A stretch of DNA of 64,000 nt from Aequorivita lipolytica (GTDB lineage: Bacteria > Bacteroidota > Bacteroidia > Flavobacteriales > Flavobacteriaceae): NCBI RefSeq assembly GCF_007997135.1, contig NZ_VORU01000002.1, positions 248,001 to 312,000 of the forward strand, written 5' to 3'. Position numbers and translations under genes: made by a program. Shown in pieces: positions 1,120 to 64,000 of the stretch; the first letter of the stretch is position 1, and each line of letters opens with the position of its first letter. Below the pieces are notes generated by a model. It was not told the DNA's origin. It did no database searches and saw nothing but the letters and a program-made list of their open reading frames with translations.

Positions 1120-2685
1120 ATGAAACTAAACAAAATCCTTCCCCTTATGCTGCTGCTAGCCTGCAGTATGAGTTTTGCCCAACAAGGCAAAAAGCAGAGC
1201 AAGAAGCTGAACACAAAAAAAATTCAGATTGTTGATTCCATTAAAGTTTCAAAAATTGCTGAGGAATTACCCTCAACAGTGGTGGCTACCTCCTTTAAGG
1301 ATAGCACAGTTTTTAACTTGAAAGATATGGCCCTAGCCCGTAAAAAGGATAGTCTCTGGCTAAAAGAACTCTACAAATCTGATCTTTTTGAAGATATATA
1401 CAACAGCGTAGCAAACCAAGATTTTGATCCCGTAGATTACGATGAACTCCCCACAGAATTATTAAAGCAACGTCTAAAGGAACTAGATGCCCGAACACCA
1501 TTTAAAGTAGAATACAATCCTTCCTTAGAAAGTGTAATTAAGCAATATCTTAAGAATCGTCGTAGAGGGTTGGAGCGTTTAATGGGACTAAGTGAATATT
1601 ATTTCCCTTTGTTTGAACAAGAACTAGACAAGCACAACTTGCCTTTAGAATTAAAATATCTAGCTGTTATTGAATCTGCCTTAAATCCTCGAGCCCAGTC
1701 AAGGGTTGGTGCCACAGGACTATGGCAGTTTATGTTTCCTACTGGCAAAATGTTCGGATTGGATGTTAGCTCTTATGTTGATGAGCGTTCAGATCCATAT
1801 CTTGCAACAGAAGCCGCCTGTAAATACTTAAAGAGTTTAAACACTAGCTTCAACGATTGGGATTTGGCACTTGCTGCTTATAATTCTGGCCCTGGAAATG
1901 TTTCAAAAGCAATTCGTCGTTCCGGTGGAAAAACCGATTATTGGAAGCTTCGAGATTATCTTCCGCGTGAAACTGCAGGCTATGTGCCAGCATTTTTGGC
2001 TACAATGTATATTTTTGAATATGCACAGGAGCACGGCTTTAAAAAGCAAGCCGCAAGAATTCCTTTTGTAGCCACAGACACCATCCGTGTTAAACAACAA
2101 ATTACTTTAGATCAAGTTGCAAAACTTACCAATCTTGACAGAGAAGAGCTTGAGTTCCTTAATCCATCGTACAAACTGGGTATTATACCTGTAGTAAAGA
2201 ATGAAAACTACGTGCTTAGGCTTCCTCTAACGGCTGTTGGAGCCTTTGTAAATAACGAAGATGCTATATATACATTTGCACAAGAAGAGCAGGACGAAAC
2301 CGAGAAAGCATTGCCTGAATTGTTTGAGCAACCTGAAAAAATACGCTACCGTGTAAAAAGAGGCGATTACCTCGGCAGAATTGCGGAACGATACGGTGTG
2401 GGCGTAAGCGAAGTAAGAAGTTGGAATGGGATGCGTAGCAACACTGTTAAAGTAGGTCAGAACTTAATCATTTACCCGAAAAAAAGCACTCAGGATATAG
2501 CTAGTAACGCTCCTGTGCAGACCAGTAATTCTTCCGAAAAGACTTACACCGTCCGCAACGGTGATTCATTGTGGAGCATTTCACAAAAATTTCCTGGAGT
2601 TTCAGTCCAAAATATCAAAAAATGGAACGATATTAGTGGTACTAACTTAAAGCCTGGAACTAAACTGAAAATTCTAAAAGGATAG
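1120..2685 (+). CDS. Lytic murein transglycosylase with two LysM domains (MltD-like)
   Basis: Periplasmic enzyme expected to cleave the MurNAc-GlcNAc bond of peptidoglycan. Residues 1-20 form a signal peptide ending ACSMSFAQ; a cysteine at 15 could be a lipobox, but the fit is loose. The SLT domain has the catalytic Glu at 185 (AVIESALNP), then GATGLWQFM (198-206) and AAYNSGPGNV (252-261). Two LysM peptidoglycan-binding repeats lie at about 408-453 and 474-520. Length, 521 aa, and domain order match MltD-type proteins. The start at 1120 gives a proper signal peptide; an overlapping frame at 1050 does not encode this protein. Confidence 0.92.
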   Translation: MKLNKILPLMLLLACSMSFAQQGKKQSKKLNTKKIQIVDSIKVSKIAEELPSTVVATSFKDSTVFNLKDMALARKKDSLWLKELYKSDLFEDIYNSVANQDFDPVDYDELPTELLKQRLKELDARTPFKVEYNPSLESVIKQYLKNRRRGLERLMGLSEYYFPLFEQELDKHNLPLELKYLAVIESALNPRAQSRVGATGLWQFMFPTGKMFGLDVSSYVDERSDPYLATEAACKYLKSLNTSFNDWDLALAAYNSGPGNVSKAIRRSGGKTDYWKLRDYLPRETAGYVPAFLATMYIFEYAQEHGFKKQAARIPFVATDTIRVKQQITLDQVAKLTNLDREELEFLNPSYKLGIIPVVKNENYVLRLPLTAVGAFVNNEDAIYTFAQEEQDETEKALPELFEQPEKIRYRVKRGDYLGRIAERYGVGVSEVRSWNGMRSNTVKVGQNLIIYPKKSTQDIASNAPVQTSNSSEKTYTVRNGDSLWSISQKFPGVSVQNIKKWNDISGTNLKPGTKLKILKG

Positions 2686-61661: not shown

Positions 61662-63254
61662 ATGAAAGATTTCGCCCAACTCATAAAAAAGCTCGACAGC
61701 ACCAACAAAACCAATGAAAAGGTAGCAGCGCTCACTGCGTATTTTCAAAATGCTAACGATGAAGATAAGTTGTGGACCATCGCCATTCTTTCTCATCGAA
61801 GACCGAAACGACCTGTAAACACAACACTTCTTCGACTTTGGGCAACAGAAATCAGTGGAATTCCGCTTTGGCTTTTTGAGGAAAGCTATCATATTGTCGG
61901 CGATTTGGCGGAAACAATTGCACTTATTTTACCAACCTCCGAAGAACATTCCGAGAAATCACTTTCAGAATTTGTTTCAGAAATTATTGAACTGCGAACG
62001 CTGCCTGAAGAAGAAAAAAAGAAATATCTGCACGACAATTGGTTGGCGCTAAATTATTTTGAGCGTTTCGTTTTCAATAAAATTCTCACGGGAAGTTTTA
62101 GAATTGGAGTAAGTCAAAAGTTGATGACGCGCGCCCTTTCCAAAGCCACGGGAATTGACGAGGACATTCTCGCCTATAAATTGATGGGCGATTGGACGCC
62201 CGAGAAAACCACTTATAAAAAACTGATTCTCGAACATAATGAGGAAGATTACCTCAGCAAACCCTATCCATTTTATTTGGCGTATGCCGTTGAGGATAAT
62301 TTTCAAGAAGATTTGGGACCCATTTCAGATTGGAGTTTTGAGCATAAATGGGACGGAATTCGCAGCCAAGTAATTATTCGAAACGATGAGGTTTTCGTGT
62401 GGTCGCGCGGCGAAGAATTGGTGACTGATAAATATCCCGAGTTCCAACGTTTTCTTTCTGAGATTCCTAATGGAACTGTAATCGATGGAGAGATTTTGCC
62501 TTTCGGCGAAGGAGAAATTGGCAACTTCAATGCGCTTCAAACGAGGATTGGAAGAAAGAACATTTCAAAAGCGCTTTTGAAAAAAACTCCGGTAATTCTG
62601 AATGCATACGATTTACTGGAATGGCAAGGCGAGGATATTCGGCAAAAACCTTTTTCAGAAAGAAGAGAGATTTTGGATTCATTAATTCAAAAAATTAATT
62701 CCGAAGAAACAGGAATCTATTTAAGCGAAACAATGAATTTTGAAACTTGGGAAGAAGCCGCCGCCGAACGCGACCTTTCCCGTGAAAAACGCAGCGAGGG
62801 CTTGATGTTGAAAAGAAAGGATTCTCCGTATTTGGTTGGTAGAAAAAAAGGAGATTGGTGGAAATGGAAAATCGATCCATTCACCATTGATGCGGTTTTA
62901 ACGTACGCAATGCGAGGCCATGGAAGACGCGCCAATCTTTACACAGATTACACTTTCGCACTTTGGGAACAGGGCGAATTGGTCACTTTTGCAAAAGCCT
63001 ATTCTGGTTTGACGGATGCTGAATTTAGACAAGTAGATGCGTGGATTAAACGAAATACTTTAGAACGATTCGGACCAGTGCGAAGCGTAACCCCGCAACA
63101 CGTTTTCGAAATCGCGTTCGAAGGAATCGCTGAAAGCAGTCGTCACAAAAGCGGAATTGCTACACGTTTTCCAAGAATTTTAAGTTGGCGAAAAGATAAA
63201 CCAATTGAAGAGGCGAATACTTTGGATGATTTAAAAGCGCTAATTCCGAAGTAA
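61662..63254 (+). CDS. ATP-dependent DNA ligase (ligase-associated DNA damage response)
   Basis: 530 aa from the ATG at 61662 (MKDFAQLIKKLDS); the TTG at 61644 would add residues encoded by a repeat. An N-terminal helical domain, then the adenylation domain with catalytic Lys229 in FEHKWDGIRSQV, GTVIDGEIL, EGLMLKRKDSPY and the motif V KKGDWWKWK, and an OB-fold with GHGRRANLYTDYTFAL. It should seal nicks using ATP. In other genomes the Lhr-like helicase gene usually follows directly; here a DUF559 cassette intervenes. Confidence 0.93.
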   Translation: MKDFAQLIKKLDSTNKTNEKVAALTAYFQNANDEDKLWTIAILSHRRPKRPVNTTLLRLWATEISGIPLWLFEESYHIVGDLAETIALILPTSEEHSEKSLSEFVSEIIELRTLPEEEKKKYLHDNWLALNYFERFVFNKILTGSFRIGVSQKLMTRALSKATGIDEDILAYKLMGDWTPEKTTYKKLILEHNEEDYLSKPYPFYLAYAVEDNFQEDLGPISDWSFEHKWDGIRSQVIIRNDEVFVWSRGEELVTDKYPEFQRFLSEIPNGTVIDGEILPFGEGEIGNFNALQTRIGRKNISKALLKKTPVILNAYDLLEWQGEDIRQKPFSERREILDSLIQKINSEETGIYLSETMNFETWEEAAAERDLSREKRSEGLMLKRKDSPYLVGRKKGDWWKWKIDPFTIDAVLTYAMRGHGRRANLYTDYTFALWEQGELVTFAKAYSGLTDAEFRQVDAWIKRNTLERFGPVRSVTPQHVFEIAFEGIAESSRHKSGIATRFPRILSWRKDKPIEEANTLDDLKALIPK

Positions 63255-63260
63255 CCTGTT

Positions 63261-63385
63261 CCCCTCCTTTTTTCAAGGAGGGGTGCCCGAAGGGCGGGGT
63301 GGTCCTTTTTTCAAGGAGGGGTGCCCGAAGGGCGGGGTGGTCCTTTTTTCAAGGAGGGGTGTCAGCTTTGCTGACGGGGTGGTTA
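63261..63385. repeat. Tandem double-hairpin repeat array, left
   Basis: Units at 63266-63303, 63304-63341 (38 bases each, identical) and a variant at 63342-63385. Each has a stem CCTT-TTTTC-AAGG (extended to CCCCTCCTT/AAGGAGGGG in unit 1), then a second stem: GCCC-GAA-GGGC in units 1-2, GTCAGC-TTT-GCTGAC in unit 3, then GGGGTGGT. No spacers, so not CRISPR. Confidence 0.9.
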
Positions 63386-63412
63386 TAGCAGAATTTTGAT
63401 TAAATTTAATTT

Positions 63413-63781
63413 ATGAAAAAACAAATACACAACCTAAAGGAAATGGAAGTGTACAGGAAATCACTCCGCAACAATTCAAATTCCGCGGAGGCGTTTCTTT
63501 GGAATTTTTTAAAAGGCTCAAAGTTGGAAGGTAGAAAATTTAGAAGGCAGCACAGTATTAAACATTATATCGTAGACTTTTACTGTCCTTCAGAAAAATT
63601 GATTGTGGAACTTGACGGGCAAGTACATTTAAACAATACCGCGGATGAATATGATAGAAAGCGAGAGAAAGATTTGGAAAATTTAGGATTTACAGTTATT
63701 CGTTTTGAAAATAAAATGGTTTTTGATTTATTGCCTTCGGTGTTGAAGGATATAAAGGACCATTTTAAAAATAACACGTAA
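63413..63781 (+). CDS. DUF559 (Vsr-like) endonuclease-domain protein
   Basis: 122 aa. Pattern of the very-short-patch-repair-like PD-(D/E)XK nucleases: E26 in the first helix (SAEAFLWNFL), D55 in HYIVDFYCPS, E66-L-D68-G-Q70 and H72 in LIVELDGQVH, then DRKREKDLENLGFTVIRF. All the core acidic residues are present, so activity is plausible. Its DNA target is unknown. Flanked on both sides by double-hairpin repeats; a 35-base stretch at 63351-63385 recurs exactly at 63886-63920. Confidence 0.85.
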   Translation: MKKQIHNLKEMEVYRKSLRNNSNSAEAFLWNFLKGSKLEGRKFRRQHSIKHYIVDFYCPSEKLIVELDGQVHLNNTADEYDRKREKDLENLGFTVIRFENKMVFDLLPSVLKDIKDHFKNNT

Positions 63782-63784
63782 CCC

Positions 63785-63827
63785 TTCCGTCCAGCAAAGC
63801 TGTCCACCTTCCCTTTAAAAGGGAAGG
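63785..63827. repeat. Double-hairpin repeat unit, inverted, right of DUF559
   Basis: CCTTCCCTTT-A-AAAGGGAAGG (63807-63827) preceded by CCAGC-AAA-GCTG; on the minus strand it has the same order (big stem, then CAGCTTTGCTG stem) as the left array. Confidence 0.85.
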
Positions 63828-63873
63828 AGCTCTAAAAAAACCTTCGCTTTTTTAATTTGGTGAAGGTAAGGTT

Positions 63874-63920
63874 CCCCTCCTTTTAAAGGAGGGGTGTCAG
63901 CTTTGCTGACGGGGTGGTTA
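63874..63920. repeat. Double-hairpin repeat unit, direct, right of DUF559
   Basis: CCCCTCCTTT-T-AAAGGAGGGG, then GTCAGC-TTT-GCTGAC, then GGGGTGGTTA. 63886-63920 is identical to 63351-63385 on the left of the gene. Confidence 0.9.
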
Positions 63921-63953
63921 AGGCCTAATTTTCAATAAACTCAAAAAAATAAA

Positions 63954-64000
63954 TTGAATAATACTCACATTACAGATATAGCTGCCTCTTGGTTCGAATC
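63954..64000 (+). CDS. Start of probable ligase-associated DEXH helicase (Lhr-like), partial
   Basis: The last 47 bases read, from a TTG at 63954, NNTHITDIAASWFES; an in-frame stop at 63936-63938 leaves TTG as the only start. A short acidic helix ending in WF is how I recall the N-terminus of the helicase of this operon, and the ligase gene upstream predicts that gene here. Only 15 residues are visible, so this is a context-based call. Confidence 0.45.
   Translation, partial: MNNTHITDIAASWFE

Follow-up and report, generated by a model that had tools for sequence, protein, structure and literature searches.

DUF559 nuclease genes framed by triplex-motif repeats: a candidate class of bacterial mobile elements

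The described repeats closest to those reported here are the TM repeats, formerly BoxC or PIT, which are present in 23 copies in E. coli MG1655 and occur in more than 260 bacterial genomes (Holder et al. 2015, PMC4666352). In the sections of that paper considered here, triplex formation by an E. coli unit is demonstrated in vitro, the units are linked with genome instability in E. coli, and the authors report finding no mobility gene beside the repeats; by term search, its main text contains none of the words DUF559, endonuclease and ycjD. In the present loci the same motif is linked with DUF559 genes and also appears as gene-less pairs and as insertions that keep the reading frame. RAYT, the protein that accompanies REP sequences and REPINs, is a Y1/HUH transposase. 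REPs carry GTAG or CGTC tags, and the Rickettsia palindromic elements (RPE) are palindromic repeats found in frame in protein genes, as stated in the sections used of PMC3733652. A joint description of the units and DUF559 was not found in the literature searched, and among papers mentioning DUF559 no title or abstract start points to these repeats; preprints and most subscription journals lay outside the search, which is hence no proof of absence. Both the repeat and the protein family have been described before, and what is new is their pairing as a proposed mobile-element class.

The locus studied lies at the end of a 64,000-nt stretch of DNA ("the window", G000:C24:248001-312000) from a 3.31-Mb genome in 47 contigs. 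Like REP and REPIN with RAYT, systems of this kind show a nuclease gene flanked by inverted palindromic units, gene-less pairs dispersed in the genome (Variovorax) and, in flavobacteria, some correlation between unit type and protein. In contrast to RAYT systems, the window cassette encodes no Y1/HUH tyrosine transposase, as judged from profiles and from fold matches to endonucleases, and by eye neither GTAG nor CGTC marks the foot of the hairpin in the window and the sampled units, which carry a mirror third arm instead. The REP/RAYT analogy drawn in the earlier note holds for the behaviour of the system and fails for its protein, DUF559 being of the PD-(D/E)XK type. RPE share the in-frame palindromic repeats, although they have no stated link to DUF559 in the part of the source considered.

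The reading of the cassette as a nuclease gene set between repeat units, made in the earlier note, agrees with the sequence, the ORF list and Pfam (Table 1), and the 35-base identity reported there between the two sides (63351-63385 and 63886-63920) is exact by direct reading. The full CCCCTCC arm is found in one of the three units of the left array, at 63261-63303, and the inverted unit overlaps the DUF559 stop codon. The helicase ORF starts with a TTG codon, has its full length of 823 aa in L005, and displays DEAD, Lhr winged-helix and DEAD_assoc domains (Pfam). A metallo-beta-lactamase-like gene near the window end, with Pfam matches below cut-off, is what had been called the exonuclease. 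The pattern AGGGGTGN{6,24}GGGGTGGT has four matches in the 3.31-Mb genome, all within the cassette, against none for a reversed control pattern, so that the window repeats are not due to chance. A looser, different pattern of the unit type gives 13 genome matches, some of them overlapping, two of which are in the cassette.

Table 1. Features of the cassette and its neighbours, in window positions
Feature	Position	Strand	Details
ATP-dependent DNA ligase, upstream neighbour	61683..63254	+	DNA_ligase_A_N/M/C, E down to 6e-32
Unit 1 (triplex motif)	63261..63303	+	Y arm CCCCTCCT, loop, R arm, hairpin linker TGCCCGAAGGGC, third arm GGGGTGGT
Unit 2, tandem copy	63303..63340	+	5' arm shortened; third arm GGGGTGG intact
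Unit 3, tandem copy	63341..63382	+	5' arm shortened; linker TGTCAGCTTTGCTGAC
DUF559 Vsr-like PD-(D/E)XK nuclease, 122 aa	63413..63781	+	PF04480 E=1.1e-31
Inverted triplex-motif unit	63780..63827	-	CCTTCCCTT / linker TGGACAGCTTTGCTGGAC / GGAAGGGTT
Second downstream unit, direct	63874..63919	+	CCCCTCCTT / TGTCAGCTTTGCTGAC / GGGGTGGTT
Ligase-associated DEXH (Lhr-like) helicase, start	63954..64000	+	runs past window end

Units are composed, in this order, of a Y arm, a loop, an R arm, a linker (hairpin-forming in the window) and a third, R-like arm. On one strand, the antiparallel purine-motif triplex code reads G.GC, A.AT and T.AT. In the window the arms are Y=CCCCTCC, R=GGAGGGG and third=GGGGTGG, the third mirroring R with a T opposite the A-T pair, and it is proposed from these letters that the window units can fold on one strand as a purine-motif triplex. 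The units thus have the BoxC/PIT/TM grammar, that is, a Y arm, a loop, a complementary R arm and an antiparallel mirror third arm. The "double-hairpin" repeats of the earlier note are real, but each unit is an intrastrand-triplex motif and not two independent hairpins; the second hairpin is the linker, which in flavobacteria often forms a hairpin itself. Near DUF559, perfect third arms beside asymmetric arms obey the mirror code alone in 91 entries and the direct repeat alone in 8 in flavobacteria, and in 88 and 7 entries in a multi-phylum set; hairpins were scanned on both strands and each was entered twice, once per side, so that the counts are of entries, not of hairpins. On these figures, readings in which the third arm repeats directly, or serves the 5' arm as a second pairing partner, were rejected. 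When the downstream sequences are swapped between units, perfect mirror matches fall from 99 to a mean of 15 in flavobacteria and from 121 to a mean of 28 in the multi-phylum set. Opposite A-T pairs, where the mirror code by construction permits A or T, both are used (110/140 and 130/98). Mirror-coded third arms are also seen on hairpins far from DUF559 (13 mirror-only entries against 3 direct-only, and 12 against 0), and units are therefore not confined to DUF559. A simple terminator or attenuator was rejected as the main reading of the hairpins, because the third arm is mirror-coded and because the units are two-sided, occur in frame in coding genes and are mostly absent at other ORFs.

Association with DUF559 was assessed in two sets of loci. 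The flavobacterial set comprises 82 loci with DUF559 matches at profile E<1e-30 (own HMM) from 149 genomes of the family, leaving out weaker, broken or degenerate matches (L030, L072, L089-L097), a Vsr gene (L004/L008) and own-genome duplicates (L001-L003). The multi-phylum set was drawn by protein similarity to an alignment of six DUF559 sequences, from which the 80 best-scoring among 578 relatives were kept, with loci from Proteobacteria, Chloroflexi, Planctomycetota, Elusimicrobia, Omnitrophota, Gastranaerophilales and others. PF04480 has a match in 72/149 family genomes; each of 20 weak, partial PF04480 matches examined proved to be a true Vsr protein (PF03852). GC-rich hairpins amount to 4.86/kb within 200 nt of the DUF559 domain, against 0.34/kb beyond 600 nt. 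A triplex-grammar scanner found units on both sides of DUF559 at 50/82 flavobacterial and 60/80 best-scoring multi-phylum loci (38/82 and 51/80 when arms of 6 or more are required), on one side or both at 68/82 and 73/80, on a single side at 18/82 and 13/80, and no unit near 14/82 and 7/80 of the genes. Random placements in the same loci were two-sided in 0/2585 cases (flavobacterial) and in 0.2% of 3312 (multi-phylum), and other ORFs in the same loci, which are mechanical ORFs of at least 100 aa and not curated genes, in 1/162 and 2/215. DUF559 genes hence bear units far more often than other ORFs and have flanks unlike theirs, the opposite of the outcome that would have refuted the earlier note. 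At the genome level, units of two arm types are present in 30/53 genomes with DUF559 vs 6/96 without (Fisher p=1.3e-11), presence being defined as a best E <= 2e-14 (53/149 genomes).

Both third arms face the gene in 56/60 two-sided multi-phylum loci, while among the 50 flavobacterial ones the third arms point toward the gene in 26, the hairpins in 15, and orientations are mixed in 9. The in-frame copies in leuS, recG and metH have, by eye, hairpins that point inward and third arms that point outward, the reverse of most multi-phylum cassettes. Within a locus, left and right arms resemble each other beyond shuffled expectation, in the multi-phylum set (0.909 vs 0.759, 0/1000 shuffles) as in flavobacteria (0.751 vs 0.676, 5/1000). 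In flavobacteria, moreover, arm type tracks DUF559 sequence (r=0.152, 0/1000 permutations), as does linker class at intergenic loci (r=0.49, 0/1000). Across phyla, arm type does not track DUF559 divergence (r=0.03, 232/1000; second test 88/1000). A RAYT-like coevolution of arm type with DUF559 is thus retained for flavobacteria and dropped across phyla; the flavobacterial correlation is itself weak evidence for recognition, since cassettes travel whole.

DUF559 of the window gives a full-domain match to PF04480 (109.3 bits, cut-off 20.6), and its only other profile match, to the REase model MTES_1575, is below cut-off. It has no match to Vsr (PF03852) at E<=0.001, a search in which 20/20 control genes match. 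Its AlphaFold2 model (mean pLDDT 90) is matched in the PDB first by 3hrl, a Neisseria endonuclease-like protein (E 2.7e-8), then by the catalytic domain of the homing endonuclease I-Bth0305I (3r3p, E 1.4e-4, prob 1.00), and more weakly by Vsr (0.11). The predicted fold belongs to the same nuclease fold family as those of I-Bth0305I and Vsr. Unlike I-Bth0305I, DUF559 is flanked by triplex units, with no intron or intein seen at the window locus, and unlike Vsr it is regularly accompanied by units, any unit being found within 2.15 kb at just 1/20 true Vsr loci of the same family, vs 68/82 DUF559 loci. Invariant columns include E26, D55, E66, D68 and H72 in alignments of 18 and 28 sequences, the 18 including in-frame copies. 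For copies inserted in leuS, dN/dS is 0.04, 0.07 and 0.12 in three pairs that share a version and 0.24 when the two versions are compared; in two other near leuS pairs dS is saturated and pN is below 0.1. These ratios show purifying selection on DUF559, even inside LeuRS.

The ligase-helicase junction was surveyed in 18 genus members, 11 of which gave a strong helicase match. The two genes overlap directly (ATGA) in 6/11 (L213, L214, L216-L219) and are separated by 14 nt in L220; a 113-nt gap in L212 holds what looks by eye like a decayed unit; and in L215, from congener G157, a GIY-YIG nuclease ORF (2277-2585, minus strand, Pfam E 1.7e-12) replaces DUF559. Two unrelated nuclease genes are thus observed at one insertion site. 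The DUF559 cassette is present in the remaining 2/11, namely the window genome and L211, whose DUF559 is 86.6% identical to that of the window (tblastn match) and whose linker hairpins, by eye, differ in sequence with their pairing kept. As most junctions are without a cassette and 6/11 show direct overlap, the cassette is an insertion relative to the common state. The earlier note had weighed a fixed, repeat-free ligase-DUF559-helicase order in relatives, which the empty junctions of close relatives reject. In L042 and L058, from two other genera, DUF559 adjoins what seems by eye to be the same helicase.

A second insertion site is located within leuS. In 5/18 genus members (L181, L182, L188, L191, L195), leuS holds DUF559 and its units in frame, at a place that we take to be near the editing domain of LeuRS; 13/18 are without DUF559, seven of them having a minimal 34-residue stretch between the anchors. 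Since a LeuRS query gives one match in each of 29 matching genomes, no LeuRS other than the interrupted one was found. In the window organism, leuS (L006:2545-6192) contains a full DUF559 domain in frame, together with two further in-frame solo units. One of the latter replaces about nine codons for a net gain of one, as judged against four congeners and a genome from a different family, a single case that would fit cut-and-repair better than classical transposition. DUF559-leuS exists in the genus in two clearly different versions (56% aa identity), and in L202, from another family, a solo unit lies in frame at the same leuS site. Among the 82 flavobacterial loci, DUF559 is in frame in leuS (11), recG (4) and metH (3), and is terminally fused to hemD-like (6), hisD (1) and dehydratase-like (1) reading frames, these host genes being identified by profile for one or two examples each and by matching flanks for the rest. 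By eye, the insertions occupy one place each in leuS, recG and metH across different genera. In L187, L189, L196 and L197, the same leuS stretch has a different in-frame extension, in some of them with GAGTTATGAGTT-like repeats that are not of the triplex type.

Gene-less forms were examined in Variovorax and Enterobacter. Variovorax G180 harbors 32 units, 22 of which form 11 opposed pairs at 74-85 nt from start to start, and one further pair, 352 nt apart, encloses DUF559. Enterobacter G178 harbors 107 units, and in the six pairs examined the hairpins point inward. In Variovorax, two opposed units are present in 12/13 gene-less stretches examined, 11 of which had been chosen as pairs, and the third arms are inward in 11/12 of these opposed pairs, as in the DUF559 cassette L251. 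Gene-bearing and short gene-less forms with common inverted ends thus coexist in Variovorax as in a MITE with its IS, and terminal inverted repeats are present, given the inward third arms of 56/60 multi-phylum and 26/50 flavobacterial loci; unlike IS and MITE, the window cassette has no DDE, HUH or serine transposase, and the ORF between its units is DUF559. One gene-less-pair site in Variovorax, read in 25 of the 31 matching genomes from the genus of G180, is filled in 10 loci, has no insert in 14 (overlapping or near-overlapping genes) and carries another insert in one. The filled site is of the CCCTCTCCC type in six loci and of the CCCTCCCCC/CCTTCCCCC type in four, and the latter arms differ on all three strands yet obey the mirror code. 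The other insert (L265) is a different one of ~85 nt and shows no detectable triplex unit. The mobility that the earlier note suggested for the cassette is thereby supported, orthologous sites being empty in some genomes and filled in others, and the same holds for the gene-less derivatives of Variovorax; such empty and filled sites establish insertion polymorphism of the elements at the sequence level. At the leuS and Variovorax sites the flanks changed along with the gain and, by eye, no clean target-site duplication was found, the relatives being too diverged. Plasmid or phage carriage as a route of spread received little support, with 45/72,556 plasmid records and 4/50,697 phage records matched by one query protein. 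Tandem arrays of TCCCCTYGAGGGGA units, with ~141-nt and ~104-nt spacing, were observed at G134:C1:218819-219266 and G134:C12:175611-176154.

In E. coli K-12, ycjD is a DUF559 gene, and the gap between ycjD and fabI holds CCCCTCGCCCCTCTGGGGAGAGGGTTAGGGTGAGGGG with a degenerate neighbour. From the shared grammar, we read this unit as probably one of the 23 published TM copies. A 61-nt query from the gap has matches in 5357/5426 E. coli genomes, with a median of 14 per genome, whereas a query of the ycjD region is covered over at least 80% in 3362/5426 and not in the other 2064. A clean empty site for ycjD was not found in E. coli, the two strains without ycjD that were viewed (L179 and L180) having other genes beside fabI.

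Selection maintains the nuclease, the ends share a conserved folding code, and insertions occur both with and without the gene, all of which points to a selfish element. We consider it probable that DUF559 and its triplex-forming ends constitute a mobile element in which the nuclease mobilises the ends, and of which the repeats are gene-less derivatives. Such an element would consist of a small PD-(D/E)XK nuclease gene (DUF559) and inverted end units foldable into a purine-motif triplex. DUF559 would recognise the end unit, single-stranded or extruded, or else the target, and would then cut; repair of the break would copy or paste the unit pair, alone or together with the gene, at a new site, which would often be a gene junction or a surface loop, sometimes with replacement of a few target bases. 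To our knowledge no PD-(D/E)XK enzyme rejoins strands, so that host repair must be assumed. Gene-less pairs and solo units, such as BoxC/PIT/TM in E. coli, would be non-autonomous derivatives or remnants, on which DUF559 may act in trans. Against this model stand the lack of arm-protein correlation across phyla, the units in genomes without DUF559 and the mixed orientations, as well as the fact that nearly all E. coli genomes hold units though the ycjD region is under-covered in 2064/5426.

Some of these observations also speak for an account in which the units spread otherwise, by replication template switching or by an unlinked enzyme, and DUF559 is just often caught between them, whether because a pair of inverted units is a favourable place to land or through unit-unit recombination that carries the gene along. 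Units persist in 6/96 genomes without DUF559 and in nearly all E. coli genomes, many of which do not cover the ycjD region, the tandem arrays of G134 resemble slippage, and arm type does not follow DUF559 divergence across phyla. We nevertheless hold this account to be unlikely, though worth serious attention, given that other ORFs in the same loci are rarely two-sided (1/162 and 2/215), that any unit occurs at just 1/20 true Vsr loci, and that purifying selection acts on DUF559 even within LeuRS. In another account DUF559 would be a free-standing homing endonuclease cutting alleles that lack units, with the units serving as homology or assembly tracts without being recognised; this would agree with I-Bth0305I being the nearest characterised fold, with the single insertion place, by eye, in each of leuS, recG and metH of different genera, and with the GIY-YIG ORF that takes the place of DUF559 in congener G157. 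Fixed-target homing does not explain gene-less pairs with the same ends at many unrelated places, the match between left and right arms within a locus also counts against it, and it appears rather improbable.

Least credible, with a very small probability, is a housekeeping role in which DUF559, as a Vsr-like repair nuclease, resolves triplexes or hairpins at replication forks and is kept near the units by selection for local processing. Its patchy distribution (53/149 family genomes at best E <= 2e-14), the insertion polymorphism, the in-frame leuS copies and the gene-less inverted pairs all count against such a role, for which a Caulobacter Vsr-like DUF559-domain protein needed for the DNA damage response without a cytosine methyltransferase (PMC12907096, in the part considered) and the association of units with E. 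coli genome instability (PMC4666352, likewise) can be invoked. 

The mobile-element reading can be extended to a bacteria-wide class of transposable or homing elements with intrastrand-triplex ends in place of plain hairpins or duplex inverted repeats, in which orphan BoxC/PIT/TM repeats, in E. coli as in other bacteria, would be non-autonomous derivatives mobilised in trans by DUF559 (YcjD among others) and which would have invaded LeuRS in frame; for this broader claim we see the chances as evenly balanced. If true, an essential enzyme, LeuRS, would carry a selfish nuclease as an internal domain, and a class of mobile elements would combine triple-stranded DNA ends with a PD-(D/E)XK enzyme. 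DUF559, so far a domain of unknown function, would thereby gain one, and the in-frame inserts that recur in flavobacterial leuS, recG and metH would be accounted for. The origin of BoxC/PIT/TM repeats is directly testable in E. coli K-12, where ycjD and the repeats are both present.

The ends themselves show a further variation in Variovorax. Several gene-less pairs among L240-L253 extend, by eye, past the outer hairpin with approximately CTTGCT...AGCAAG, an outer extension that may possibly represent an extra recognition tag.
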